DNA from: Paralichthys olivaceus
Lineage: Eukaryota; Chordata; Actinopteri; Pleuronectiformes; Paralichthyidae
Length of the DNA: 64,000 nucleotides
Direction: 5' to 3'
NCBI RefSeq assembly: GCF_024713975.1
Contig: NC_091116.1
Coordinates: 6,450,621 to 6,514,620 of the forward strand
Shown: piece after piece, positions 1 to 39,656 of the stretch
Layout of the letters: each line of letters opens with the position of its first letter
How positions within the stretch are numbered: the first letter of the stretch is position 1
Notes under the pieces: generated by a model
Database searches by the model: none
Told to the model about the DNA's origin: nothing
The model's input: only the letters and a program-made list of their open reading frames with translations
Position numbers and translations under genes: made by a program

Positions 1-3000
1 AGCAGCTGACCACACGGCTGAGTGCAGAGGACACACAGGAGGGTTAAATAAGACCAGCTGATGTCTTCAGCATCACAAAAAAAGCTTTAAAGAGGGAAAT
101 CGTTGGTTTACACAGGTTTGGGTGACTGCGGCGGGGCATCAGTCGAGCCTGGCTCCTTCTGGTCTGGTAGGTTCGTGGTTGGCTCTGGAATTTGGCCACC
201 CTCTTCTGGCAGGTCTGGGAACAGAAACCTGCAGAGGATTGAAGAACCCATGATGGAAACTGCATATGAGGTTGTTTATATCACATGTAGAATTGCGGTT
301 GATGGTTATTTTTACGGTTTCTGGGGTTTTATAGACAAGTAATTTCCCCAGCTGCTCAAAAAAACCCTAGAGGAAACACTGCTATGTGATTAAAATCATA
401 GCGATACACAAATCTGAGATAAGAGGACATTTAGAAATAAAAGCTGCATTGTATGTTAAGCACCTGACAATCTGGAAGATGCGGTTGAGGTAAGACTTGA
501 TCTCATTGACAGCCTGAGGCAGGAGTCGCCGGTTGGCTCCAACGCCCACGTAGGTCATCCTGTAGACCGCCACCAGGGTCTCCACCAGCCGTCCCAGTGG
601 GTGGAGTGGGGTGTCACAAGCCTGAGAGCGGGAGATATTTTTACAATCCTGAATAATTATAGTGTTTTCAGTGGGAGTGAGGAGCGGTGGGTGGATTCAC
701 CTTGATGAGGTAGAGGCGGATGATGTGATATCTGTCCATAGTAATGGGTCCCACATGCTGCGGGATGACCTCCAGACTCTCCAGGGTTCTACTGTGGCTC
801 CGAGAGAGAATCTCCGGCCTGAGATAAAATGGAAAATTATAATATGATCCAGCTATAATCTAAATATAAAACATTCATGTTTAACCGATCCAAAAACATA
901 CAAATGACAGAGAGAGCGTTACACAAATCGCATCATGTCGCGTGTACCTGTCCTGGATCTGCCACCGGTTGGTGGTGAGGGCCACAGCTATGTTCTCCCA
1001 CGCCTTCCAGTTTTCTCCTTGGCCCGACGTCTCACATCCCAGCTGACTCCAACACTCGACAAACACCGCCTGCCACTTATCCTCCGAGCACACACACAGA
1101 CGGCCGAGCTTCCTGCAAGATCACACACAAAGTATATGATGTATATAATATGGCGAATACGACGTCCACGCTGATGATTTCTGACACTGTTAGCTTACAC
1201 AACATGAGTCTTTTCTTTGTCGGCGTCGAATAGGTGTGGTTTGAAGTAGGAGCCCGTCACCTTGAGGCTGGAGCCCCATTCACCACCAAAGGAGCCCTCC
1301 AGGTAGTCACTGTTTGCCATGGTCAGCACACCCTGAGAAATATCCAAATCAATACATTAAACAACACTGAAATACGTTTCACTGCTAATACTTGAATAAT
1401 ATCTCGGTACAGAGGCCATGTATAACATTTAGGCAGTTAGCCAAAATGAATCACACATCCAAAGGCACATGAGTTGTGATGTTTATAAGTCACCTTTCCA
1501 TTCAGGGTCCAGTCGTCAGAGAACTCCCCCTCATACGTTGTGTCGTCCTCTGACAGAAGGATTCCAGTGCCCTAAAAACAACAAGACTCAGTTCATTCTT
1601 CAAAAATGTCTCTACTGCTTCTCCATCAAAAGCCTTCCTTATATTGTACAAAGTATAAAACAGCTAATATACATATAGTAGCTTTATTTATTTTGAGCTT
1701 AAATAAGAAATCTTCTCAGAAACACTCAATAATATCAATCACTGAAGATCCAACACGACTTGGAGAGTTTTGAAAAAAAACTGCACTGGCATTAAATCAA
1801 AACACACAAGAACTTTCACTCCTGTTTTTCCAATTCATATTTTTTCTTGTATAAATAACTGTGACTTCATTTTAAAGACAGAAGTGCTCACCATCATTTT
1901 ATTATCTTTGAAGGTTCCTTCATAGTACAGGCCAAACTGGGTGACGACCACCCCGGTGCCCTGCCGCAGGTGGTCCTGCCACATGCCCATGTACTTTTCT
2001 CCCCTGACAAGCAAACAAACCAACAGCTCTTAAACACACAAATCAAGAAGAAAATTGCATGGTATTTTGTGCAGGGCTTGTTTTTCTCATGTAAAATTAA
2101 TGCAACAGAAATTAGAAATTGCATACAGTGCAGAACCAGACACGTGCTGAAGTTAGATTGGTGTGTGGAGTGAACGTACTTTGTTATATCGTCAAAGACT
2201 CCGTAGCCTGTCTTCTTGTCCTGCACCCACTGGCCTATGAAGACACTGGGGGAGGACGTGTTAAGCTTGCCGCTGCGCAGCATGCCGTGACCGTGTCGCA
2301 TACCATCCTGGAAGGATCCATCGTAGACCTCACCACTGGCATACCTGCAGGCAGTGATACGATGTGTATTCTGAGCTTTGGAAGCTGAGTGCATATCCAA
2401 CAATTATTTTTCTAAACCACTGTGTTTGTTGTTCCCGTGTCCCTGCCTTATTGTTGCCCTATATGAACAAAACTATTGTCATACACACTGACCTGTACGT
2501 CCCGAGGCCGTGCATCTTCCCATCTTTCCAGTGACCTTGATAGTGATCGTTCTTGTTGAGCGCTTTATTGGGAGCGGTAAATTCTCCAAACCTAAAAATA
2601 CACGAAGGATGAAGAGAACCTTGCTAAACTCAGCTGACTTGTGAAAGAATCAGACATCAGGCTCATTAACAGTGAGTGCACACGATGAGAGATCACAGAG
2701 TGGCTTTGACGGGCAGCGCTCACCCATCTTCCAGTCCGTTCTTGAACTCCCCTGTGTATATTCGCCCATCAGGCCATTTTAACACTCCCCTGAAAAACAT
2801 TACAAAGTTCAGTTGAAATGTACATCGCTATGTGTTTTTAATAAAAGCTCAGTCGGTGTTTGTCTTACCTGCCGTTGGGTTTGCCAGCGAGCCAGCGGCC
2901 TTCGTATGTGGCCTCTTTCAGACGCCCATCCTTATAAAAAGTGTAGGATGCCGTCCTGGAGATAGGAGGCTCCAGCTTTGGCCCCGACCCCGGGCTGACT

Positions 3001-9000: not shown

Positions 9001-12000
9001 CATTATGTGTTTGTAACCATTTTAAGATCCCATTAGAGTTGCTAATCTTTTTAACGTTGGTACATACAAAACAGAGCAGATCTACAAGTACCACCTAACT
9101 CCTCTACATGTCCGCCGACTACTCAAGTTGCAGGATTAATTGGGATGGACAGAATATTATGATGTGACAGTGAAGCTGACCTCTGACTTAATGAAAATAA
9201 AATGTCCACACTTCATAATTGTTTGCAAATTTGTCACAACTAGCACATTTATTCTATAAAACCACTACAGAACCAGATATTGAAATCCAGAGTAAATGAT
9301 CCGAGGCAGGACAGAAATGACTATTATCTAAACGTGTTTATTTCTGTTCGGGGTCACACAGAGGCTCTGAGCTTATTCAATAATGCATCAAACTTCCTAC
9401 CCTTTTTCTGCTCTGTTAAATCAGACTAATGTGTCCTCCACCCTTCATCATCAGAAAAATCCTGCTGCCAGATTATCAATGATGGAGGCTAAAAAAAGAT
9501 CTGCATTCCTCGCACAAAATCGACCATTCAAGTAAGCTAAGTCGGCTCAAACAGCACCTGCTAATGAATGGCATTCACACGGACACAAAGGCACAGTTTG
9601 TTTTACCATTTAGGCAGGAAAGAAAGTCTTTAGTCCATGTAATATTCAAAGCAAAACTAAACATGTTTATAATCCATGAAAAATCCTGAATGCAGGTATT
9701 GACATTGAATGTGTCATTACAATAAAAAAGAAAACGTGGAAAACCCAGATTTTTTAAACCTTCCTTTTGCTTTCTCAAACCAGCTGTATGTGATGTTGCT
9801 CTGGATGACACATACAACGACACTACTGTGCACAAAGCATGCCACAATGAAAAGCCTTTGCAGTGCTCACAAGCATGAACACACACAGACATAGACCTGC
9901 ACACGCGCAAGGCGTACTTACGCAGCAGGGCATAGGAGGATGATAAGAGGTGAACAGCGTATCTACCCTGTGAGAGGAGTCCTGGGAGTGAGAGGCGGCG
10001 CCGCATACTCTCGGCCTCCTCCTCGCGGATGTCTCCTGTGCTGGAGCTCTTCTTGCCCTGCATGGAGTCCTCCTGGCGGACACGCTCTGTGGTATTGTCG
10101 CCGACTCCCGGGGCCGTGCCGGTAAGCCCAGTGGGTGCGCCTGACCGAGACACCCCAGAGGGCAGGTAGTTCATCATCTTTTTGAGGGACAAGGCCTCGT
10201 AGGTGGAGGCGACCCGCTCGCCCACAGCAGAGGCGCAAGAGGCCACCAGGGTGTTGAGTGTGGCGCTCGGGCTGGAGGCGAGGCCCACGGCTGAAGGCTG
10301 GAAGAGAAACAGAAGAATCAAGGACGGAGTTTCAGAGAGGACCACATCTACATAAGTATCTGTGCAGTAAACTCACAAGCAGACTGTGCAGTCCTCCTGT
10401 CTTCGCTTCTGTCTGTGTGTTGTCTGTCAGCTTCTTCAAGTAGTCTTTGACAGCCTGCTCATCTGGATAGAGTGAACTCTTGACCACTGATACAGCACCA
10501 CTGCCGCCTTCAGACTGAGCAGTGGGGTCAGAGTCTGAGCAAGGCAGCACTCCGTTAGCCAATGCTGTTTCCTCTTTCTCCAGGTCCTGGACGGGGGCAG
10601 AGTCAGAGGAGGGGTCAGCACTTGTCTGAGGTGCTGGGGAATCAGAGTGTGAGGTGGATGTATGAGAGGAGAGGACGGGCTCAGATGGAGATGTTTTGAG
10701 TCCGTGGGCGGGCGCCTCCAGCTTCCTCTCATCCTTAGTCAGCTCCGCGCCAGGGGGGCAGTAGTGACCGTCAGAGATGATGACGTGGTCCTCTTTGTCC
10801 GTCATGGTGTACAGCAGCTGGTTACAATGTCTGCATTTGTCCACGGGGGGCCGTTGGACATCCTGAGATCCCAGGCAGCGCACCAGGGCCAGGCTGTGCA
10901 AAGCCCCGCAGGCCACCTGAAGTACATACCTCCCTGCTAAGTGTTCAACCTTTTGTGGTTTCCACACAGGAAAGGTGGCCACATTGAGGCCCAGCTGGCA
11001 ACCGCTGCCCCATGCCCACACCTCCCGCTTGACCGACAGCGCCAGGGTGTGCTGTTCCCCACAGGCCAACTCCAGCACAGGCACCGTCTGCGGGGGAACA
11101 GTGTCCGAGTCCACCAGAGCCACCGGAGTCGGGTTGGGGACGGCACTGAGCCCCGACAGGCCACACTGTCCTGCCCCATTGTCCCCCCACATGTGGACGC
11201 CGCCATCCTCCGTCACTGCCCCGCTGTGGAAACTGCCAGCTGCAACGGCGACCACACGCTGCCCGCTTAGAGCACATTCCTGGGTGGGTCCTCCAGGGAC
11301 TTGACTCTGCTTCCATGGCAGCTCCCCAAAACTGTACACCTGTCCTCCTGAAGTGGAAGGAACAATGAAATCAAAGACGGACATCTCAAGTTTTAGTTTT
11401 TCTCTGGTTCTGGAACACTGATCAAAGTATCAGTATTCAAGATGAATAATGATGAGTGCAGGTGTAACCAGCACTAAGTACTGATTTTCATTACCTTCCA
11501 CCAACAGAACTCCATGTCGTATGCCCAGTGCGACCTGGAGGACAGGCCGGGGTAGAAGCATCCTCTCTGGGGTGACGCTGCAGGAGTAGCCCTTCCAGGT
11601 GTGGAGCAGGCCTCGCTCTCCTCCATCATCGTCCCCGGAGCTGAAAGAATCAAAATCATTTGGAAACATAACGAGTGACTCAGACCACAAAGACATGTCA
11701 GGATTTTAACTTTCAAATAGCAAACAGCACCCAAACCTATTTGTTCAAGATAATCATTTATAAACTAACTATAAATGTATTGGCAGAAATGATTATTTTC
11801 ACTTCTGGTCTATTGAATGACAGAAGTTCTGGAAAAAAGGCAAAACGGACATTTGAATTGTCACATCCAAAATCCAAATATATTCAATTCACCATCAACT
11901 TTACATAAATTGATTTTTGACATTCTGTTTTAACCAAATGACTTAAAATGTGTGCAGGCAGTAATGCCTTCATTGCTCAACAATCTGCTTAAGTGTTATG

Positions 12001-24748: not shown

Positions 24749-27700
24749 GACAGAGGACTCAGAGAGGAGATTTTGATCAACATGGCTGAACGCTGCGACT
24801 GCACAGAGTGTAAGGAATCCTTATACGGCCAGAAATACATCCTGAAGGAGGAGGATCCGTACTGCATCAAGTGCTATGAGGCACTTTTCTCCAACAACTG
24901 TGAAGTGTGCGAGAAGCTCATTGGCTGCACCAGCAAGGTAATATTAGTACTTTTTAAACTTCCTGGACGATGAATCATCTTGATGACATAAACCACGCCT
25001 CCACCATGTTAGTGGATGGGATAAATACACATCTAATAAATTTTTTCAGAAAGATTATTTCTGTCTTTTTAGGTTGTTTGTTTTGGTTTTGATTTGTTAT
25101 TTGATGCAATAAAATGGGGTTAAGCGTTTTGGTTGAGAACTGAGACTGACCTACAGTTGGTGGAGTGTGTGTTGGTGGTATCTCAACATCGGCCCAAGTT
25201 TTCTCTCCTCTCATTTACCCTCCAGGATCTGTCGTACAAGGAACGCCACTGGCACAGCGAATGCTTCCTCTGCGTCACGTGCAACCGATCTCTGGTGGAC
25301 CGGCACTTTGCCTCTAAGGATGACATGCTGATGTGCACGGAGTGCTACAGCAACAAGTACTCTGCCAAGTGCAACATGTGCCTGAAGACCATCATGCCAG
25401 GTGAGGAGGCCTGATCACAGAAAGAAACAGAGCACAGAGGGAACTGCAAGGTTAGGTTGGGTCTGTGAATGGATGAAGCATATGCAATAATAGTACATTA
25501 GTAAACATCTTTTTATTTATTTATCTATTATTTTCTGGATTTTGATGCAATTAGTGATGTCAGGGGATTTCTCAGAGGGAATTTAGATATGTACACATTT
25601 GGTAACAAAGACTTTTTAGGACTTTATCACATGAAGTCCATTAATAAACCCAAACTACGGTTCTTACGTTAAAAAGTAATTTATTCTAGGACATAACTAT
25701 AACTTCAGAAGCTCAGAAGCTGTAACTGACCTGAATGCTGCTGGAATAAAGTTAGTAACTGACACAAAAACTCATGAAATAAAAACATTTATGCAGAAAG
25801 ATGCCAAGTGAATATGTAACAATACTAAACGCATTAACCAAGACTTGATTACAGGTAAAAGTAGCACATTAGCAGTACATGAATGTTTTTTGCTGATCCA
25901 TTCCTCTACTTTCCGTTCACTCACCAGGCTCTAAAAAGATGGAGCACAAGGGCAACAGTTGGCATGAGAACTGTTTCTCCTGCAACCGCTGCCAGCAGCC
26001 CATCGGCACCAGGACCTTCGTCCAGAAGGACGCCAGCAACTACTGCCTTCCCTGCTACGAGAAGCTGTTTGCTCTGCAGTGTGTCCACTGCAAGAAGGTA
26101 AAACAACGGCTGACTGTGATTTACACTCTCACCACTCACAATTCCCCATATTGGCCTGATAATAACAAAATCAATATTCTGTTTGAGAGACAATTGAAGG
26201 CAGTGGAATCATTTCAGATGTCCTCTGAATGGATTTAGAGTTAAAGCTGATCTTGAGTGAAATATTCAAGTTCAAAAGAGAGGTCCAAGCCTTTTTTTGT
26301 TGCAAAAAAATCTATTAAATAGAAAGAAATAGAAATGCACTTAATTTTTATAGTTATAGTTTATTTAAAATCTTTAATGTGAATATGTGCTTTTACAACA
26401 GTTAAAAAAAACATCCAGTCACCAGCTTGATGATTATCACGGTCTTCATCAGTGGATAGAATTTGTTAAGTTGTCAGTGGCTTGAACAGGAACCGATCTC
26501 CCTACATATTGTTTTTCACCAAATTCCTTTAGTCCTTTTCATCTCATATGCTTGAAAATGGTTTCAAACTGTTCTTTATTTTTTCTCTATACTGTTTTTA
26601 ACGCCCCTGAACAGCACCTTGATCTAACTCTGAAATGTGCTTGATATATGTATAACTGCCTTGTCTATCATGTCTTTAACTTCTAGCCCATCACCACTGG
26701 AGGGGTGAACTACCACGACCAGCCGTGGCATAAGGAGTGCTTCGTCTGCATCGGCTGCAAGAAGCAGCTGGCCAGCCAGCGCTTCACCTCCCGGGACGAC
26801 TTCACCTACTGCCTCGACTGCTTCTGCAACCTGTTTGCCAAGAAATGTGCCTACTGCACCACCCCCATTAGCGGTAAGGTCTCACCTGAAGATGTACCGT
26901 CCTGATAAAACTTCTTTATTCACATCTGAATGTGGCTGTTTGTTTAAGATTAGTTGTATTATTATTATTATTATGAGTTAAATGACATGCAGAGACTTTT
27001 AATAGATCTTTTGATACTTGCAAACTAAGCATTAGCGATGGTCAGGAAATCCTGAGGTGGGTCATGTCCTTTAATTTCTGGTTTCAGACCTGTGGATTGT
27101 TGCGCATGTCTCTGATTGGGGATTTAATTGTCCCTGTGTGCTTAAATCTGGACTTTGAATGGCACTAACGATTAGAAAATGCAGCCCATAGTCCAAATTC
27201 CCAGTTTAATGTCATTACTGACTCGTTTTTTTAGACTTACTGATGCTCCTGCAGAGCCACAGATACAGTTGTTTCCAGAGGCTGTGTACAGGGTCAATCA
27301 TGACTAAACTGAAACCTGTGTTAACCCTAACAGAGCCTGCAATGTAGGAACGAGGGAAAAAACAGTGCTGTGTAAATGCTGCATCATTAAGTCATCTGAC
27401 CTATCGTCTGAAACTAATGAGAAACAAAATGTTTTCAGATGAGTTGCCATTAAAAGGATAAAATGAATTAAAAGTACAAGTTGAGAGGAGTAAGTGTAAT
27501 GTCCTGGGATCACATGCTTCCTTCTGCATCCTATGTATCCAATCACCATCAATTACAGGTTTATTACATTACAGAGATCATGAGACTCATTCCTCTTGTG
27601 CAGCAAGTGATCCCTCGCGTCTCTCCCTGAATTTGTCGCAGGCCTCGGTGGGAGCAAGTACATCTCGTTCGAGCAGCGCCAGTGGCACACCAACTGCTTC

Positions 27701-28245
27701 AACTGCAAAAAGTGCAGTGTGTCCCTGGTCGGCCGGGGTTTCCTGACGTGCAAAGATGACGTCCTATGCCCCGACTGTGGAAAAGACCTCTGAGTGAACT
27801 CCAGAGCTAAACGAGCCAATCAGAGAGCATTAGTGCTATTCTCCTAACCCAACCTTTGTTGCATTATTTTTGCATCATTTATTGGTTTCTCACACATTAA
27901 CCAGTTCCTGCTGCTGAGGTGTTTTCTGCATGCGCTGATGATCCTGTATTTTATATTAATCAGTTGAAGCCTTCATTCCAAAATGCAGTTTTATTAGTTT
28001 CTTAAAAGCTTTGAATTGTATATCCTCATTTGAAACGTAAGTTTGTAAGTGGTATAAAAACAGCCAATATTGATAGATATTTTGAGCTTATTAAAAATCA
28101 TAAAGTTGTTTTCATTGATGGCACTGTGGTATCAATTTGTCTTAACAAAGTCGATTACTAATCCAGTTTCTTCTGATTACATACGTTGTCTTTGATTGAA
28201 TCTAATCTGTTAGGCACAATAAAAAATATTTGATTCGATGAACGC
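24749..28245 (+). CDS. fhl2: fhl2, four-and-a-half LIM domains protein 2, complete
   Basis: Coding exons are 24782-24937 (ATG at 24782; exon opens at 24749), 25226-25400, 25928-26097, 26687-26873 and 27642-27793 (TGA at 27791). They sum to 840 nt, or 279 residues, equal to human FHL2. The N-terminal half LIM starts [10 protein letters not shown], and four full LIM domains follow, each with paired zinc ligands (for example [10 protein letters not shown] with CLPCYEK, and [13 protein letters not shown]). The C-terminus CPDCGKDL and the motif [20 protein letters not shown] point to FHL2 rather than FHL1, FHL3 or FHL5. FHL2 is a scaffold and transcriptional cofactor found in muscle sarcomeres, focal adhesions and the nucleus. 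The donor and acceptor phases are consistent throughout. A teleost may hold fhl2a and fhl2b, and I cannot tell which this is. Confidence 0.95.
28218..28223 (+). terminator. fhl2: fhl2 polyadenylation signal
   Basis: AATAAA lies 425 bp after the stop codon and is followed by a T/G-containing stretch. A second AATAAA near 28,425 is a possible alternative. Confidence 0.6.
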
Positions 28246-28968
28246 CCCTCTCGCTCAATGATTTAATTTGCTGCAGAAAAAGAAGCCTTCTATTGTGGTG
28301 GAGCTAATGAGGACATTGTGGATGTTTGTATCATGTTGTGGGTGATTGTTAAACTATGCACACTCTTTGGTAATAACACAAAACTTTCAGAAGTACACTG
28401 TGATTCTTTCATAAAAAGAGACTATTAAATAAAAGGCTCAATTGATTGGTAATAAATATTTTATTAGTGCTTTCGAGGTCATGGTCATGGGTTGTTCTCA
28501 CTGATTAAAAAGCCACCAAGTGTGCAGTAATGCATGTCCCCAAAAGAGGGATTGTTTAAATAATTCTGCAATGGAAATGTTTAATAGAATGTTAAAAAAA
28601 TATTATTGTCAATATAATTTTCTCCAGCCAAATGCTGTTTTTGTTATATTGCCAAAAGTTGCTCTTAATAATGGCTTATAACTTGTTTAAAAAGCTTAAG
28701 TGCATTTGATCATTTATTAAAGTCATTAGACACAGGTCAAATAAGTACTCACCTTCGAGCATTTACACATTTTCTTTAAAATCTACCGAAGCACCAAAAG
28801 ATATAAATAAGTAATTATGCTTGAGTAAAGATTTATTGTGAAGGAATAAAAACTTAGACCACTTTCATGCACAAATAAAGATTTAAAATGAAGAAATAAA
28901 GAGCCTGACCTCTAACTTCATTATTAATATTGCTGCTGGAAACAGCTTCAATTCTTTAAAGCTACCTG
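28246..28968. other. Spacer downstream of fhl2
   Basis: AT-rich sequence without coding potential or recognisable repeats. Confidence 0.5.
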
Positions 28969-29850
28969 ATAGGGGTGTAACGATTCGTTTTAACAACGAT
29001 TCGATTCTTATCACGATTCGTTGTTGCCAATACAATTCAAGGACGATATTGGTTCATTCAGAACGATACGATTCGAAACGATTCAGTTACTTGAAATTGA
29101 TTCAGTAACCTTTTAGCCAAAAATTCAACCAGCGTGACTGAAATAAATACCTGGATACTGGACAGTGCAGGTGAAGTTTCCTAGATTCCTAGGTATAAAT
29201 TATGGATATAAACATGTTTATATCCATTATATTTATATATTTAGTCTCTGACTAAACATTCTGGCGAGGCCTGGGGCTTCTGCGGAGCTGACTTCACCTT
29301 GCGCTGCTGCTGCAGCGGGAACGCTGCAAGGGGTGCCTGGACCGTCTGTGTTGTGTGATGAAATCCCATGGCGCTTGACGTGTTGCCGTGGTACTTCACT
29401 TGACCTTTACATATCCTACAAACAGCGAGCGACTTATTTTGAACATCACCGTCTTTGCAAAAGCCAAAGTGTTTCCACACACTGGACCGCAATGGTGGCT
29501 TGATAATTTCTCGCTCGCCGGCTTCTCCTCTGCCATCCGCCATCATGCTATGTTTTGATATTTGCTGCAAGAGGTGCCGTGTGGCGATGAGGTCACAGAC
29601 AGGCAGACTGAATCGAGTAACGTTTCACGCCTTTATCATTAAAAGTGCTAAAAAAACACATCCATATAAAGTCTGACGTGCTTAAATCCAATGTGTTATT
29701 TCCTAGTATCGATACAGTCGATTGATTACTTTTTGTTAGATCGACATATGTCACCCGGAAGGCCAACTTGCCGAGCACAGATCAATGTAGTTGGATCGTA
29801 GGAATATTAATTTATACATCAATGTAGTAGATAAATCATTACACCCCTAT
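28969..29850 (-). mobile_element. Internally deleted hAT element with BED zinc-finger remnant
   Basis: The element begins ataggggtgtaacgatt and ends aatcattacacccctat, which are inverted repeats of about 17 bp in the style of fish hAT transposons. Many degenerate acgattcg motifs sit inside the left end. The minus-strand frame 29,241-29,570 encodes the start of a ZBED-type protein: SSVWKHFGF, then CRICKGQVKY and GNTSS. After this point the expected histidine pair of the BED finger is out of register and no transposase core follows. No perfect 8-bp target duplication is seen, so the copy looks old and depends on enzymes from elsewhere. Confidence 0.72.
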
Positions 29851-30049
29851 TTAGATGCAATATGAAAGAACATTAATGGAGTCTGTCTTTGATGTTATGA
29901 AAGACAAAACAGTGTGGTAACAAAAGCAGTTGCCTTTAAACAGTGTGGGAATAAAGGCAGTTTCCTTTAAACTAGAGGTGGCTAATCCCCTCTACAAGCT
30001 AACTACTAAAACTGCGACTCATCTACGGCTTAAGAGAGTCATGAAAAGG

Positions 30050-30169
30050 TCTAAGTTTGCAGACCTCGAGCAGATGTGTGACCAGGAAAGACATTTGAAG
30101 CAGTGTATCCATAGATGCAAGGTGGCAAAAATGATAGAGGACAGGAGACAACAGCAACTGGCCAATGTG
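30050..30169 (+). pseudogene. MNS1-like exon copy 1 (partial, 5' part lost)
   Basis: Homology begins around the FADLEQM codons and runs to the shared donor at 30170. The sequence before it is unrelated to the other units, so this marks the left edge of the array. The remaining frame is open. Confidence 0.7.
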
Positions 30170-30667
30170 GTACGTCCCAGGCTCTCTGTTTCCATAATTA
30201 CATCAATAATAAGGTGGTACTGGTGTAGCTTCACTATCAGACTTTCACCCTTAGTTTACGTGAAACTGTTTCACTGTCAGATGTTTTATCTCAATATTAG
30301 CTGTTCGCACTTGCAGTTTTAGGGACAAAGATGTTTATAAAGTGACATATTCCCAATCCTAATGCTGACGCCTGTTCTTGCTCAGTCTAACTTTGATGAG
30401 TGGGCATATCTCCTATGAGAAGTGTGCAACTGACTGATAGTTGCAGTCTAAATGACAAGAATTAGGTCCAGCATGTTCAAGAGTAATGCTGAACTGAAGA
30501 TCATTCAAAAAGATTAAGAATCTTTTGAAACCTCCAATATTCAATGAGGAAGCTTTTAAAATATCGAGAATTCTGAACAGAGTTTAGTGCATTTGTTACA
30601 ATAGCAGCTTTTCTGGTTCAGGAAGCTGAAGATCATGGCTAATATCCTGTTGCTTTTAATTTTAAAG

Positions 30668-30844
30668 GAAGTTGAGGAGGAGGAGGAAACCAAAGAGGAC
30701 TTCAGGAAGATGATGGCTAAGTTTGCAAAGAACGCTCGGCTCGAGCAGATGGGTGACAAGAAAAGACATTGGACACAGTGTATCCACAGATGCAAGGTGG
30801 CGAAACTGATAGAGGAAAGGAGACAACAGCAACTGGCCAATGTG
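30668..30844 (+). pseudogene. MNS1-like exon copy 2 (open, 59 codons)
   Basis: An open phase 0-0 module with GTATGT donor. It is one codon longer than the others because of an extra pair of Glu codons and a missing Lys codon. It is among the most diverged copies (IHRCKVAKLIEERRQQQ). Confidence 0.75.
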
Positions 30845-31389
30845 GTATGTCCCAGGCTCTCTGTTTCTGTAATTACATCAATAATAAGGTGGTACTGGTG
30901 TAGCTTCACTATCAGACTTTCACCCTTAGTTTACGTGAAACTGTTTCACTGTCAGATGTTTTACTGCTTATGCTAAATTGTGGAGGGCAACAAGTAGCAG
31001 TTACCAAGTTTTATCTCAATATTTGCTGTTCCACACTTGCAGTCTTAGGGACAAAGACGTTCTAAAGCAACATATTCCCAATCCTAATGCTGACGCCTGT
31101 TCTTGCTCAGTCTAACTTTGGTGAGTGGGCATATCTCCTGTGAGAAGTGTGCAACTGACTGATAGTTGCAGTCTAAATGGCAAGAATTAGGTCCAGCATG
31201 TTCAAGAGTAATGCTGAACTGTAGATCATTCAAAAAGATTAAGAATCTCACGAAACCTCCAATATACAGAGAGGAAGCTTTTAAAATATCGAGAATTCTG
31301 AACAGAGTTTAGTGCATTTGTTACAATAGCAGCTTTTCTGGTTCAAGCTGAGGATCATGGCTAATATCCTGTTGTGCTTCATTTTAAAG

Positions 31390-31563
31390 GAAGTTGAGGA
31401 GGAAACCGAAGAGGACCTCATAAAGAAGATGATGGCTAAGTGTGCAGAGGACGATCGGCTCGAGCAGATGGGTGACCAGAGAAGACGTTTGAAAAAGTGT
31501 ATCCACAGACGTGAGGTGGCGAAACTGATAGAGGACAGGAGACAACAGCAACTGGCCAATGTG
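31390..31563 (+). pseudogene. MNS1-like exon copy 3 (open)
   Basis: An open 58-codon module with GTACGT donor, reading EDLIKKMMAKCAEDDRLEQM and then RREVAKLIEDRRQQQ. Confidence 0.75.
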
Positions 31564-32111
31564 GTACGTCCCAGGCTCTCTGTTTCTGTAATTACATCAA
31601 TAATAACGTGGTACTGGTGTAGCTTCACTACCAGACTTTCACCCTTAGTTAACGTGAAACTGTTCCACTGTCAGATGTTTTACTGCTTATGCTAAATTGT
31701 GGAGGGCAACAAGTAGCAGTTACCAAGTTTTACCTCAATATTTGCTGTTCGACACTTGCAGTCTTAGGGACAAAGATGTTCTAAAGCGACATATTCCCAA
31801 TCCTAATGCTGACGCCTGTTCTTGCTCAGTCTAACTTTGGCGAGTGGGCATATCTCCTGTGAGAAGTGTACAACTGACTGATAGTTGCAGTCTTAATGAC
31901 AAGAATTAGGTCCAGCATGTTCAAGAGTAATGCTGAACTGTAGATCATTCAAAAAGATTAAGAATCTTTCGAAACCTCCAATATTCATTGAGGAAGCTTT
32001 TAAAATATCGAGAATTCTGAACAGAGTTTAGTGCATTTGTTACAATAGCAGCTTTTCTGGTTCAGGAAGCTGAAGATCATGGCTAATATCCTGTTGTTTT
32101 TAATTTTAAAG

Positions 32112-32285
32112 GAAGTTGAGGAGGAAACCGAAGAGGACTTCAGGAAGATGATGATGGCTAAGCTTGCAAAGGACGATCGGCTCGAGCAGATGGGTGACCA
32201 GAGAAGACGTTTGAAAAAGTGTATCCACAGACTCGAGGTGGAGAAACTGATAGAGGACAGGAGGAAACAGCAACTGGCCAATGTG
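32112..32285 (+). pseudogene. MNS1-like exon copy 4 (open)
   Basis: An open 58-codon module with GTACGT donor, reading EDFRKMMMAKLAKDDRLEQM and then RLEVEKLIEDRRKQQ. Confidence 0.75.
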
Positions 32286-32822
32286 GTACGTCCCAGGTTC
32301 TCTGTTTCCATAATTACATCAATAATAAGGTGGTACTGGTGTAGCTTCACGATCAGACTTTCACCCTTAGTTTATGTGAAACTGTCAGATGTTTTACTGC
32401 TTATGCTAAACTGTGGAGGGCAACAAGTAGCAGTTACCAAGTTTTATCTCAATATTTGCTGTTCGACACTTGCAGTCTTAGGGACAAAGATGTTCTAAAG
32501 CAACATATTCCCAATCCTAATTCTGACGCCTGTTCTTGCTCAGTCTAAATTTGGTGAGTGGGCATATCTCCTGTGAGAAGTGTGCAACTGACTGATAGTT
32601 GCAGTCTTAATGACAAGAATCAGGTCCAGCATGTTCAAGAGTAATGCTGAACTGTAGATCGTTCAAAAAGACTAAGAATCTTTCGAAACCTCCAATATAC
32701 ATTGAGGAAGCTTTTAAAATATCGAGAATTCTGAACAGAGTTTAGTGCATTTGTAACAATAGCAGCTATTCTGGTTCAAGCTGAGGATCATGGCTAATAT
32801 CCTGTTGTTTTTCATTTTAAAG

Positions 32823-32996
32823 GAAGTTGAGGAGGATACCGAAGAGGACTTCAGGAAGAAGATGATGGCTAAGCTTGCAAAGGAGGATCGGCTCGAGCAG
32901 ATGGGTGACCACAAAAAACGTTTGAAAAAGTGTATCCACAGACGTGAGGTGGCGAAACTGATAGAGGACAGGAGACAACAGCAACTAGCCAATGTG
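32823..32996 (+). pseudogene. MNS1-like exon copy 5 (open)
   Basis: An open 58-codon module with GTATGT donor. It is nearly the same as copy 7, suggesting recent duplication or conversion between them. Confidence 0.75.
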
Positions 32997-33541
32997 GTAT
33001 GTCCCAGGCTCTCTGTTTTCATAATTACATCAATAATAACGTGGTACTGGTGTAGCTTCACTATCAGACTTTCACCCTTAGTTTACGTGAAACTGTTTCA
33101 CTGTCAGATGTTTGACTGCTTATGCTAAACTGTGGAGGGCAACAAGTAGCAGTTACCAAGTTTTATCTCAATATTTGCTGTTCGACACTTGCAGTCTTAG
33201 GGACAAAGATGTTCTAAAGCGACATATTCCCAATCCTAATGCTGACGCCTGTTCTTGCTCAGTCTAACTTTGGTGAGTGGGCATATCTCCTGTGAGAAGT
33301 GTGCAACTGACTGATAGTTGCAGTCTAAATGGCAAGAATCAGGTCCAGCATGTTCAAGAGTAATGCTGAACTGTAGATCATTCAAAAAGATTAAGAATCT
33401 TTCGAAACCTCCAATATACATTGAGGAAGCTTTTAAAATATCGAGAATTCTGAACAGAGTTTAGTGCATTTGTTACAATAGCAGCTTTTCTGGTTCAAGC
33501 TGAGGATCATGACTAATATCCTGTTGTTTTTCATTTTAAAG

Positions 33542-33715
33542 GAAGTTAAGGAGGAAACCGAAGAGGACTTCAGGAAGAAGATGATGGCTAAGTTTGCAGA
33601 GGACGATTGGCTCGAGCAGATGGGTTACCAGAGAAGACGTTTGAAGCAGTGTATCCACAGATGCTAGGTGGAGAAACTGATACAGGACAGGAGATGACAG
33701 CAACTGGCCAATGTG
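33542..33715 (+). pseudogene. MNS1-like exon copy 6 (two in-frame stops)
   Basis: TAG at 33665-33667 and TGA at 33695-33697 interrupt the frame. The splice-like borders are intact. Confidence 0.78.
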
Positions 33716-34260
33716 GTACGTCCCAGGCTCTCTGTTTCTGTAATTACATCAATAATAAGGTGGTACTGGTGTAGCTTCACTATCAGACTTTCACCCTTAG
33801 TTTACGTGAAACTGTTTCACTGTCAGATGTTTGACTGCTTGTGCTAAACTGTGGAGGGCAACAAGTAGCAGTTACCAAGTTTTATCTCAATATTTGCTGT
33901 TCCACACTTGCAGTTTTAGGGACAAAGACGTTCTAAAGCAACATATTCCCAATCCTAATGCTGACGCCTGTTCTTGCTCAGTCTAACTTTGGTGAGTGGG
34001 CATATCTCCTGTGAGAAGTGTGCAACTGACTGATAGTTGCAGTCTTAATGACAAGAATTAGGTCCAGCATGTTCAAGAGTAATGCTGAACTGTAGATCAT
34101 TCAAAAAGATTAAGAATCTTTTGAAACCTCCAATATACATTGAGGAAGCTTTTAAAATATTGAGAATTCTGAACAGAGTTTAGTGCATTTGTTATAATAG
34201 CAGCTTTTCTGGTTCAAGCTGAGGATCATGGCTAATATCCTGTTGTTTTTCATTTTAAAG

Positions 34261-34434
34261 GAAGTTGAGGAGGATACCGAAGAGGACTTCAGGAAGAAGA
34301 TGATGGCTAAGCTTGCAAAGGAGGATCGGCTCGAGCAGATGGGTGACCACAAAAGACGTTTGAAAAAGTGTATCCACAGACGTGAGGTGGCGAAACTGAT
34401 AGAGGACAGGAGACAACAGCAACTGGCCAATGTG
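34261..34434 (+). pseudogene. MNS1-like exon copy 7 (open)
   Basis: An open 58-codon module with GTATGT donor, differing from copy 5 at very few positions. Confidence 0.75.
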
Positions 34435-34982
34435 GTATGTCCCAGGCTCTCTGTTTTCATAATTACATCAATAATAACGTGGTACTGGTGTAGCTTCACT
34501 ATCAGACTTTCACCCTTAGTTTACGTGAAACTGTTTCACTGTCAGATGTTTTACTGCTTATGCTAAATTGTGGAGGGCAACAAGTAGCAGTTACCAAGTT
34601 TTACCTCAATATTTGCTGTTCGACACTTGCAGTCTTAGGGACAAAGATGTTCTAAAGCGACATATTCCCAATCCTAATGCTGACGCCTGTTCTTGCTCAG
34701 TCTAACTTTGGTGAGTGGGCATATCTCCTGTGAGAAGTGTGCAACTGACTGATAGTTGCAGTCTTAATGACAAGAATTAGGTCCAGCATGTTCAAGAGTA
34801 ATGCTGAACTGTAGATCATTCAAAAAGATTAAGAATATTTCGAAACCTCCAATATTCATTGAGGAAGCTTTTAAAATATCGAGAATTCTGAACAGAGTTT
34901 AGTGCATTTGTTACAATAGCAGCTTTTTTGGTTCAGGAAGCTGAAGATCATGGCTAATATCCTGTTGTTTTTAATTTTAAAG

Positions 34983-35156
34983 GAAGTTGAGGAGGAAACC
35001 GAATAGGACTTCAGGAAGATGATGATGGCTAAGCTTGCAAAGGACGATCGGCTCGAGCAGATGGGTGACCAGAGAAGACGTTTGAAAAAGTGTATCCACA
35101 GACGCGAGGTGGAGAAACTGATAGAGGACAGGAGGAAACAGCAACTGGCCAATGTG
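34983..35156 (+). pseudogene. MNS1-like exon copy 8 (early stop)
   Basis: TAG at 35004-35006 breaks the eighth codon. Otherwise it is very like copy 4. Confidence 0.78.
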
Positions 35157-35693
35157 GTACGTCCCAGGCTCTCTGTTTCCATAATTACATCAATAATAAG
35201 GTGGTACTGGTGTAGCTTCACGATCAGACTTTCACCCTTAGTTTATGTGAAACTGTCAGATGTTTTACTGCTTATGCTAAACTGTGGAGGGCAACAAGTA
35301 GCAGTTACCAAGTTTTATCTCAATATTTGCTGTTCGACACTTGCAGTCTTAGGGACAAAGACGTTCTAAAGCGACATATTCCCAATCCTAATGCTGACGC
35401 CTGTTCTTGCTCAGTCTAACTTTGGCGAGTGGGCATATCTCCTGTGAGAAGTGTACAACTGACTGATAGTTGCAGTCTAAATGGCAAGAATTAGGTCCAG
35501 CATGTTCAAGAGTAATGCTGAACTGTAGATCATTCAAAAAGATTAAGAATCTCACGAAACCTCCAATATACAGTGAGGAAGCTTTTAAAATATTGAGAAT
35601 TCTGAACAGAGTTTAGTGCATTTGTTACAATAGCAGCTTTTCTGGTTCAAGCTGAGGATCATGGCTAATATCCTGTTGTGCTTCATTTTAAAG

Positions 35694-35855
35694 AAAGTGA
35701 CGGAGGAAACCGAAGAGGACCTCATAAAGAAGATGATGGCTAAGTTTGCAGAGGACGATCAGCTCGAGCAGATGGGTGACGACAAAATACATTTGACACA
35801 GTATATCCACAGACGCTAGGTGGAGAAACTGATAGAGGACAGGAGACGACAGCAT
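35694..35855 (+). pseudogene. MNS1-like exon copy 9 (truncated, stop)
   Basis: TAG at 35817-35819 interrupts the frame. Homology ends abruptly within the RRQQQ codons, so this copy lacks the donor and marks the right edge of the array. Confidence 0.78.
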
Positions 35856-36009
35856 GGTGTTGAGTTAAAACTCAGAACAGAGGGCAGGAATAATCTTTAA
35901 ACCAGAAAAACTACTACTTCCTACTTACTCCCACCTTACATCTGCTCCCCAGGCGCTTTTAGTAGCTGCCCACTGCTTCGTGTGGCCAATGCTCACACAT
36001 GATGGGTTA

Positions 36010-36210
36010 AAGGCAAGCGGCAACAACTCAAAAAGCTGCAGTTCACTGGGTGGCCACTTGAGGCTGGCTCCAAGAAGGAGTCAAATCCCATTGACTCCCA
36101 CGTTTAAAAAAAACACTTTAGAGCAGAATTAAACCTGTTTACAGCCTGGTTCAATTAACGGTTTCAGTCTTAATCAGTAAGTTCTTCCTTCATGACAACT
36201 GTGTGTATGT

Positions 36211-36271
<61 letters not shown>

Positions 36272-36310
36272 TCTGTGGTGTTTCTGTGGTGAGCAAAGTA
36301 CTGTATTTTA
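36010..36310 (+). mobile_element. Left part of a fish dispersed transposon, with a TG/G expansion
   Basis: The text from gggtggccacttgaggctgg through acctgtttacagcctggttc to ccttcatgacaactgtg is the left portion of a repeat frequent in fish genomes. It is interrupted by the TG and G tract at 36,203-36,270. What looks like its right end lies at 38,250-38,490. Confidence 0.5.
36203..36270 (+). repeat. (TG)n followed by a run of about 30 G residues
   Basis: A TG/TATG dinucleotide tract runs directly into an uninterrupted G homopolymer of roughly 29-30 bases. Such a tract can fold into G-quadruplexes, and its exact length is prone to assembly error. Confidence 0.9.
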
Positions 36311-37560
36311 TTTACTTGTCAGTAGTGATGAGCAGGTATCATTGTCTCTGTACCTGGCTTGTTAGCTTAGCTCCACTGACCTCCAGGCAAGATACCAGCA
36401 GTAATGGCGATGCTGACGGGAGCGACGGGGGTTATTAAACCGACATGAAGCGGTCCACACGGCAGAGAGAGAAGCGTTAGAGTTTATGGTGATAAATCTT
36501 TTAAACTGAAGGCGACTGTGTGTTTAGTAAATGAGCTCCACCAAGTTAGATATCTACCGTTAATAAAGTTGTTCAGCTCGCCAATCTATTTGGCTTGACT
36601 ATATTACTGTGAGTAACATCAGTATTAATGTTTTATTAGATCATTGTTTCAGAAATAACGTTAGTGCAGCTGCTGCAGTGTGAAACTTGTTGAGCTGGAC
36701 TTAATTTATTACCACATTCATTAACATTACCACAAACCTAGATTAACATACTGCAGGAACAGATTTACTGTGATAAACTGAAACTTGAACTTGTCTGACT
36801 TTACTGACTCTGTCATTAGAGTGTCAAATAAGTGAACATGCAGAATGTTGGTGACTCAGATATCCTGCACCCATGGATGTCCAGCATGAGGAGACAGAAC
36901 TGGACTCCAACAAGACTGAACACTGAGTCATCACTTCAGCACTGACTCCAGGTATAGACCTGTTTTCATAACTTACTAACAATTAAAGCAAAGTATTGCA
37001 CAAAATGCATAACAGTGTTAATTTTACCAACCATAATGGATATAGAAATTACAAACTGTAAGCAGGTGGAAGCACCACAGATTTCAGCCAAACTGATGTA
37101 CTAAAAGAAATAAATATTGTACAAATATATAAAATATTTCTACCACATCTGTAATATTAAAGGTGATAATCTATCACAGTGCTGTTTATAACAGTCCACA
37201 TCAAGTCCCTCAACTTCTCTCAGTGTGAAAACAGATAAATTATAAATAAGAGCACTGTTTACAACAGTGGTGTGTGGAGATTATAATCACATCTGTCATA
37301 TAATAACACATCTGCACTGAGTCTAATTCACTGTGAATTCCATAACAGGCTAAAAAACAAGGTTGTAATAGTAATGGTGGTTATACGAGCCTGTATCAGA
37401 ACATTTGTGAAACATAGTTACTATCACATGCAGCTTATTAATATTAACTTATTAAAATTACAGTCAAATGACAACACACAACCCTTTAAATAGGTAGTTA
37501 ACTTGCTTCAAACTGTTCATTAGGCGTGTTAAATAAACGGTAAATTACCACAATAACATT
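36311..37560. other. Spacer with no recognised gene
   Basis: AT-rich sequence lying between pieces of mobile elements. It may be part of the insertion that split the 36,010/38,490 element, but no coding feature is seen. Confidence 0.45.
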
Positions 37561-37599
37561 AAAAACCACTTGAGCCATGTAAGCATATTATGTAGTATG

Positions 37600-38010
37600 A
37601 TTATGATGATTATGTGTTGGGCAAGTTACTTCAAAAAGGAATATATTTCATATTACAAGTTACTTGCTTTTGAAAGTAATGTGTTTCGTTACAATATTAC
37701 CTTCTGTGTTGAGTAATAAGTTACTCATTACCTTTTGTTTTTTTGGTTTTAGTTTGTTTTTACCTTGTCACTTGATCGAACAGGGATTTTGCTGACAAGC
37801 TTCTGAAACGCCGGCGACTCAACTGCAGAAAGAGGCAGCGCATCCTCCACGACATACTCAGCCACCAGGCTTCTCACTTCTCCTGGGTCAAACATCTTCA
37901 CCTCTGGTCTGGAGAAATCCAACTCTCGTTGTTTAGATTCGCTCATGCCGTCATCTTCCGTCTGTTTAGCCTCTAGCTTAAGGTTGCTGTGCACTCTCTC
38001 CATAGTGCGA
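37600..38010 (-). mobile_element. hAT/ZBED-type transposase fragment
   Basis: The minus-strand frame 37,749-38,003 encodes a piece reading VEDALPLSAVESPAFQKLVSKIP. This matches the N-terminal part of hAT transposases downstream of the BED finger (a 'P-xS-xVE-x-xxF-x-xL' pattern). The neighbouring repeats of ttacttgcttttgaaagtaa are typical of hAT subterminal sequence. No catalytic core is present. Confidence 0.55.
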
Positions 38011-38249
38011 GTATAACCACTTAGAAAACGTTGAATTATCAGTTATTGCCATCTTGCCGTCTTCTTCTGTTCTTTATTTACGGCTGTTGCGCCTGGGTTT
38101 TAATAATTTATGATAATAGATAAATCAATAGGTTTCGTTGTTGTATAGTTTCAAGGTGACTTAACTCTGATTTAACACCGCAGCGCTAGCCGGTTAGCAG
38201 TAGCGGGTAGCATGTAGGCTAGCTCCGTAGCCTGAGGTTAACCAGGTAA

Positions 38250-38490
38250 CGATGAGCTCTGTGGGCGTGGCTCAGTTGTCAGTCTTCACTCAGCCCACCT
38301 AGCATCCACACGCGCTCCTCCTCTTTGCCCATTTATGGGTTAGCCAGGAACTAGGAGGAGTCAGGCCCCGGCAAGATGGCGCCGGGTGAAACGCCCACTG
38401 CGAGCCTCATTTTCAGTCTTCAGAAACCAACGGGTGACGTCACAGACACTACATCCATCTTTATATTCAGTCTGTGCTAACTGGAGGATT
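38250..38490 (+). mobile_element. Right end of a fish dispersed transposon
   Basis: The stretch gcgagcctcattttcagtct, then aaccaacgggtgacgtcaca and tctttatattcagtctgtg is the characteristic right terminus of the same repeat family as 36,010-36,310. An intact family member should be much shorter than 2.4 kb, so the two halves have been separated by later insertions. Confidence 0.5.
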
Positions 38491-39656
38491 AATAGAAAGA
38501 GGTCCCCCTCTGACCTAATTCAGGATGTGACCCCCTCCCTGCGGTGGGGATTAACAGCGTGGACGAGAGAAACAGCCACAAACGATCAGTCTATAACACA
38601 ACTTATTACACATGATTAGTTCCAAGCGCTCTCTTGATTTTGAGTCATCTCGACGTGTCGCCATATACACGTGGTTCTTGAAATTAAAAAAAGGAAAATC
38701 TAAATTTCGTTTGTTAGGAGTCATCTCAATGCACAAACGATCTTTGGTTAGCGTACCGGATGTGGGCAGCAGGTGCCACCGGAAGCGTGTTCGTCCATCC
38801 CTGCCTGCAGAGAAAAAGAAGCTAGCGGCTCTGAATTGCAAAAAAACCCATTCATTCATTGCGACAAAAGAAAAATCACTGATAATGTAAGATGTGCTTC
38901 TTGTATTTTTACTCTTGAATCTTCAGCTGTTCACCTTGAAAATAGCATCGCTGCGGTGCAGAATGACGGCATCGCCGGGGAGCCACTGCGGCAGCTACAT
39001 AGGCGGCTAGCTAAGTTAGCATGGCTTTGTTAGCCACACTGCTAAGCAAAACGACACCATTGAGAGGACTAGAGGAAGATGCTCGTGGTGTGTTTCTCGA
39101 CAGCGTGTGTTTGTATTAATAGATCGACATTATGTTTATCGTCAAACTATGATTCAAGACTCATCGGTTTGAATGCATCCCCTGCAAAGACGTGCAAATA
39201 CCGGGTGATGTCTGCAGTGGTTAGCTAATATATTTAGTTTCTGTCACTCGTGCATCAGCAAGACTTTGTGTTATCATTCTTAGATTGTATTATTCTGTGC
39301 AGCATTTTAACTGCAGCTTTGGCGACAAAAGATCGCAGACTAGGCCGCTGGGTTTGAAATGCAGATGGACAAGGCCAGACTCTGTTAGAAAAAGTGATGA
39401 TTTAAGATGTGTGATATCTGTACTGGATTCCCCTCAATAGTTTTTTCTATTCTGTCATCTCTGGTGGAAAAAGAAACTCTCTAAAAATAGTTTACCGTCT
39501 GCATTATATGGTACTTTCTAGACTTATTTTATTTGAAAAATATATTTGAAAAAACTGCTTAATATTATCTTGATTAATGATTTTTTACAATTTCAATTTA
39601 GAGATTAGAATTTACAATCATTTATTCAGTTTAACACTTTTATTTTGTGTCCACAG
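38491..39656. other. Upstream region of the C7orf57-like gene
   Basis: A non-coding first exon and promoter must lie in or before this segment, because the exon at 39657 opens with an acceptor. The somewhat GC-richer patch around 38,940-39,070 is a candidate, but no TATA box or clear donor settles it. Confidence 0.4.

Follow-up and report, generated by a model that had tools for sequence, protein, structure and literature searches.

The window analysed here is a stretch of 64,000 nucleotides of the Paralichthys olivaceus genome (contig C24, positions 6450621-6514620), and the feature under study is an array of nine head-to-tail units at 30,050-35,855, each carrying an exon-like module that resembles part of MNS1, a gene of cilia and sperm tails. 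The original prediction, made from the letters of the window alone, described a ninefold tandem array of an orphan MNS1-like exon, and the number, positions and module lengths of the copies bear it out: the ungapped repeat blocks are spaced 711-725 bp apart, start to start, with the single exception of 675 bp at truncated copy 1; modules are complete in seven copies (2-8), measuring 177 bp (59 codons) in copy 2 and 174 bp (58 codons) in copies 3-8; and copy 9, which is right-truncated with homology ending after ...CAGCA, lacks the donor that copies 1-8 retain. Copy 1 is left-truncated, without its 5' part. Modules 2-8 have lengths divisible by three and are preceded by AG (...TTTTAAAG) and followed by a GT donor (GTACGT or GTATGT); the module sequence starts with GAAGTTGAG (GAAGTT...) and finishes with ...GCCAATGTG (GTG). 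The prediction misjudged the nature of the left border (see below) and did not mention in-frame stop codons, two of which lie in copy 6 and one each in copies 8 and 9, leaving six of the nine modules open; copies 1-5 are all open, the frame of copy 1 from an ATG at 30041. The intron blocks of copies 2-8 are 96-98% identical to one another, and that of copy 1 is 74-75% identical to them (ungapped). The array is absent from the listing of Tandem Repeats Finder, owing to a period ceiling of 500; there is no match to Rfam within 28000-38500 and none to PHROGs.

The resemblance to MNS1 is significant, so that the prediction does not founder on a lack of similarity: compared with PDB sequences by phmmer, the module of copy 4 matches MNS1 of PDB 7ung best (residues 369-422, E 2.6e-11), and in Pfam it matches TPH (profile positions 254-308, E 6.4e-9). 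The parent MNS1 gene lies in the same genome (588 Mb searched, 25 contigs) on the minus strand of contig C1, where a model with exons 2-10 placed by hand and joined behind an assumed initial ATG gives a 494-amino-acid open frame in which all internal borders have their AG and GT; its exon 8 (C1:17117841-17117584) is 258 bp long and of phase 0-0. A tblastn search with the whole MNS1 protein (E up to 10), covering the window and two related loci described below (L009 and L010), finds in the window nine exon-8 copies, one chance-level match (E 1.4) and no other MNS1 exon, in keeping with the predicted orphan status of the module. Genome-wide, the TPH profile gives 20 matches (27 of 27 candidates scored), and the seven on C24 are all exon-8 segments, although this profile misses parent exons 2, 3, 7, 9 and 10, so that stray copies of those are possible elsewhere on C24. 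Each of four stop-free frames of 471-588 amino acids on contig C5 (C5:27790995-27792035, C5:3571978-3573000, C5:3728698-3729507 and C5:3741409-3742431), three of them within about 170 kb, matches most of the TPH profile in one piece; these are possibly intronless TPH-domain genes or retrogenes.

Composition of the repeat unit

Compared with the parent, each unit is made up of the final 177 bp of exon 8 followed by the first 324 bp or so of intron 8: it starts 81 bp inside the exon, runs through the native donor and, at about +324 of the intron, is joined to the next unit. The acceptor-like AG belongs to exon 8's own AAG (lysine) codon, set behind a T-rich stretch of intron 8. Intron 7 with its acceptor and the first 81 bp of exon 8, and likewise the last 334 bp of intron 8, are unmatched at better than E 0.11 in the window and in L009 and L010; the copies thus fall short of a complete MNS1 exon with its own acceptor and donor, since the native acceptor and the initial 81 of the 258 bp are missing. 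As the native acceptor and intron 7 are unmatched at these loci, the acceptor-like border and its phase 0 are by-products of the junction: MNS1 supplied the donor-like border, whereas the acceptor-like one arose accidentally where the break fell. Both splice-like borders had been predicted, and the donor proves native to MNS1, whereas the acceptor is a rearrangement junction joining an exonic codon to mid-intron sequence. Nor was an exon transplanted together with its flanking introns, as had been proposed, the unit being part of exon 8 with part of intron 8.

The intron-8 part includes a dispersed repeat of about 300 bp. In a genome search with the unit, every match outside the 12 related places (see below) falls at unit positions 403-716, among the best 40 of 401 candidates. 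The parental MNS1 intron contains this repeat too, minus about 90 bp of its middle (the parent matches unit positions 349-434 at 86% and 525-720 at 76%), and on this alignment the parent seems to have lost these 90 bp since the copying; a further array stretch of about 100 bp is also missing from the parental intron.

Related loci and flanking sequence

A 289-bp query of exon plus intron finds 12 places in the genome (12 of 12 candidates scored): the nine array copies, the C1 parent and two single copies, L009 (C24:6227 kb) and L010 (C24:6107 kb), about 250 and 374 kb from the array. The prediction named dispersal of the unit at hundreds of loci as a finding that would refute it; the unit is not so dispersed, and only the 300-bp repeat of the intron part recurs at many loci (among the best 40 of 401 candidates). 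All copies on C24 are on the plus strand, and both single copies have the same exon/mid-intron junction as the array, end at the end point of copy 9 and have their right flank in common with copy 9. L010 also contains pieces of MNS1 intron 2, one of 88 bp at 83% (E 7e-19) that starts 6 bp past the exon-2 donor and one of 36 bp at 92%; they sit between the exon and a left flank shared with the array, and a dispersed repeat separates them (among the best 40 of 390 candidates). L009 contains an intron-2 piece of 35 bp at 91% (E 2.7e-5). These remnants imply DNA-level copying of a stretch that originally reached from intron 2 to intron 8 at the least.

The three C24 loci were compared over regions of 49.9, 49.9 and 84 kb, with blocks of at least 150 bp at E up to 1e-10. 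Pairwise shared extents differ: 718 bp aligned for the pair A/B, 785 + 201 + 411 for A/C and 461 for B/C. A large segmental duplication of C24 was considered and rejected, as the three regions share only these short blocks and otherwise one 175-bp block at 74%. Between the array flanks, a search for an inverted repeat gives only a chance-level 12-bp match (E 1.0). The right flank holds two pieces of dispersed repeat, at about 35924-36015 and 36029-36120 (among the best 40 of 266 candidates). Positions of the copies and flanks are collected in Table 1.

Table 1. Copies of the MNS1-derived array and adjoining features, with positions in the window
Feature	Position	Strand	Description
Copy 1	30050..30667	+	exon-8 remnant 30050-30169, without 5' part and 9 internal bp; donor GTACGT; frame open from ATG 30041; intron-8 part after
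Copy 2	30668..31389	+	module 30668-30844, 59 codons, open; donor GTATGT; intron-8 part after
Copy 3	31390..32111	+	module 31390-31563, 58 codons, open; donor GTACGT; intron-8 part after
Copy 4	32112..32822	+	module 32112-32285, 58 codons, open; donor GTACGT; intron-8 part after
Copy 5	32823..33541	+	module 32823-32996, 58 codons, open; donor GTATGT; intron-8 part after
Copy 6	33542..34260	+	module 33542-33715, stops at codons 42 and 52; donor GTACGT; intron-8 part after
Copy 7	34261..34982	+	module 34261-34434, 58 codons, open; donor GTATGT; intron-8 part after
Copy 8	34983..35693	+	module 34983-35156, stop at codon 8; donor GTACGT; intron-8 part after
Copy 9	35694..35855	+	truncated module, stop at codon 42; no donor
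Dispersed repeat, about 300 bp, within intron-8 part	32502..32815 in copy 4 (equivalent stretch in other units)	+	from genome search with unit
Left flank common to array and L010	28468..29722	.	blastn: 28468-29218 (91%), 29523-29722 (92%)
BED zinc-finger open reading frame overlapping left flank	29244-29624	-	Pfam zf-BED, E 3.3e-6
Right flank	35856..36519	.	first part also present at the two single-copy loci (up to 36027 at L010, up to 36078 at L009); 36422-36519 also present at L009

A palindrome of some 44 bp (87%), at 29194-29237, coincides with position 29218, where the left-flank match to the C24:6107 kb locus breaks off, to resume at 29523. To the right of the array, a run of 29 G (36241-36269) immediately follows a TG repeat, and about 2 kb downstream a reading frame on the minus strand (37752-38042) has a weak resemblance to Hermes transposase that is below the cut-off (E 0.079); this frame and the BED zinc-finger frame, which flank the array, are perhaps remains of hAT-type elements or ZBED genes. 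Upstream of the array, and on the same strand, lie the LIM domains of an FHL-like gene (25124-25411 and 25897-26235). Farther away, RCC1 repeats (10335-11429, minus strand) and a MORN repeat (1897-2403, minus strand) occur as in an alsin-like gene, which is what we take this gene to be.

Origin of the array and alternative readings

The array is very probably an amplified, non-coding relic of a partial duplication of MNS1 at the DNA level, and it most likely encodes no protein. A piece of MNS1 reaching from intron 2 to intron 8 at the least would have been copied from C1 to C24, where a tandem duplication would have created the exon/mid-intron junction; the locus would then have been copied to three places on C24, at two of which only the last unit would survive, and at the array locus unequal exchange and gene conversion would have grown or kept about nine units. 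As in a duplicated pseudogene, parental intron sequence is present, namely intron 8 in copies 1-8 and the intron-2 pieces of L010 and L009; the copies are not a processed retrocopy, in which exons would be joined without introns. A candidate fusion of exons 8 and 9 in copy 9, L009 and L010, which would have been a sign of retrocopying, was rejected: the tblastn extension that suggested it ('VELKLR' against 'VELEVK') is unsupported by shuffling (749 of 2000 for protein), and the best DNA match to spliced exons 8-9, whose score is reached by 21 of 1000 shuffles (100 of 300 against the gene stretch), is located within exon 9 rather than where the exons would be fused.

Loss of coding constraint is apparent both from the stops in three of the nine copies and from the mix of changes, which gives no sign of constraint. 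The 11 copies on C24 differ from the majority by 57 distinct changes, of which 9 are synonymous, 45 are missense and 3 create stops, against a neutral expectation at the observed transition/transversion ratio of 11.8 synonymous, 42.3 missense and 2.9 stop; for the synonymous count, p is 0.42 at the fitted ratio and 0.13 at a kappa of 4. This count omits codons 1-17 of copy 1, codons 1-12 of copy 2 and, in copy 9, L009 and L010, codons 1-2. A second count, restricted to codons 13-58 of copies 1-8, gives 10 synonymous, 25 missense and 2 stop changes. Relationships among the copies vary along the unit. Copies 4 and 8 differ at 2 of 162 positions in the exon and 4 of 249 in the near intron; in the far half of the intron, however, they differ at 16 sites, and there copy 8 resembles copy 2 (4 differences) and copy 7 resembles copy 3 (4 differences). 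When the units are cut in mid-intron, the closest pairs are 4 and 8 in all parts, 5 and 7 in the exon and near intron, 3 and 9 in the intron before the exon, and 2 and 6 in the near intron only. This shifting of closest pairs by segment points to several exchanges; the units are mosaics of each other.

Several observations weigh against a plain neutral relic, which does not predict an exon more variable than the intron. Among copies 2-8, 38 of 171 exon columns are variable compared with 44 of 537 intron columns (Fisher p 3.3e-6); the corresponding figures are 34 of 126 and 48 of 486 in copies 1-8 (p 3.0e-6), 28 of 174 and 43 of 537 in copies 3-8 (p 0.003), and 19 of 174 and 38 of 537 in copies 3, 4, 5, 7 and 8 (p 0.11). 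Identity to the parent is likewise lower in the exon (71-74%) than in the intron (84-86%, ungapped). In pairwise comparisons made in register over codons 13-58, many pairs on C24 have more nonsynonymous (N) than synonymous (S) differences, on few synonymous changes: 16 N and 1 S both for copy 2 versus copy 4 and for copy 4 versus L009, the N:S site ratio for the former pair being 4.3. Moreover, a single frame remains open in each of copies 1-5, and their donors are good. At synonymous sites, too, the divergence from MNS1 is high (dS 0.45-0.75), which argues that the divergence of the exon is not simply due to amino-acid selection. At 12 of 34 variable exon sites the allele is one found in copy 9, L009 or L010, loci that lack the intron, and the pattern fits exchange with these intron-less paralogues as the source of part of the excess; private exon sites are still in mild excess (22 of 125 versus 48 of 484, p 0.026). 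The mix of changes does not call for positive selection as the cause of the exon's variability, though such selection may have acted.

A rival reading is a young coding array diversified by positive selection, in which head-to-tail splicing of the modules, from the ATG of copy 1 through copy 5 into copy 6, would make a repetitive coiled coil; the exon's variability above the intron, the excess of N over S in many pairs, the open copies 1-5 and the multiple-of-three modules 2-8, each behind an AG and before a GT donor, all agree with it. We nevertheless consider this very unlikely, since copies 6, 8 and 9 contain stops, so that not all modules are open, the proportions of synonymous, missense and stop changes are as expected under neutrality, the acceptor arose fortuitously at a junction and the window contains no further exon of MNS1. 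With introns on its 3' side, a stop in copy 6 would normally provoke nonsense-mediated decay. It is equally unlikely that the mid-exon breakpoint, having by chance made a phase-0 acceptor and hence a self-contained splice module, was followed by amplification into a novel coiled-coil frame of repeated modules (317 codons from the ATG at 30041 over copies 1 to 6, if these are joined head to tail by splicing) that diverge more quickly than the introns between them. Still more remote is the idea that the modules serve a host gene, such as the FHL-like gene upstream, as exons used alternatively or to the exclusion of one another. The LIM domains of that gene are on the same strand and modules 2-8 are phase-compatible, but the BED zinc-finger frame intervenes on the opposite strand, three of the nine modules have stops and there is no sign of constraint; LIM proteins are not known to have such a coiled coil. 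Neither of the coding uses suggested in the original prediction, a spliced coiled coil or mutually exclusive exons, is therefore favoured.

Somewhat less improbable, though unlikely, is a hAT-like or Helitron-like mobile element that took up a piece of MNS1 and of which the three C24 loci would be copies. Sequence beyond the exon is common to the three loci, and a BED zinc finger in the left flank and the weak Hermes-like match downstream would suit such an element; however, the flanks form no inverted repeat beyond chance level, the shared extents differ by locus pair, and the copies lie on one contig within 380 kb, for which ordinary local duplication suffices.

Comparison with known systems

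The array is real, well resolved and ordinary in kind, an amplified fragment of a duplicated pseudogene. Its value lies in a traceable route from gene fragment to tandem array, with parent, junction, single-copy relatives and mosaic units in one genome, and in a warning for annotators, since each complete unit mimics an exon with both splice borders although one of them is merely a rearrangement junction; were the array expressed, it would show a splice-ready module arising by chance. A literature search with MNS1 terms and general terms returned no title on an MNS1 exon array among the titles and abstract openings.

Like other duplicated (unprocessed) pseudogene fragments, the array is a partial gene copy made at the DNA level that includes intron sequence, is truncated, contains in-frame stops and changes in a neutral-looking way. 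Such fragments mostly occur singly, whereas this one was amplified ninefold in tandem after a permuting junction. Growth in tandem of a unit of exon plus intron is also seen in LPA kringle IV-2, a 5.5 kb unit with two exons present in 1 to >40 copies (PMC4378929). KIV-2 lies inside a gene that makes a protein; for the MNS1 array no host gene was found, its acceptor is a rearrangement junction and stops are present. The closest of the three options offered in the original prediction is a satellite born from an exon, in the form of a small satellite-like array derived from gene sequence. With small satellites and low-copy tandem repeats the array shares head-to-tail units of about 0.72 kb that are mosaic among themselves; it differs from them in being confined to nine units at a single locus and in having a genic parent that can be traced.

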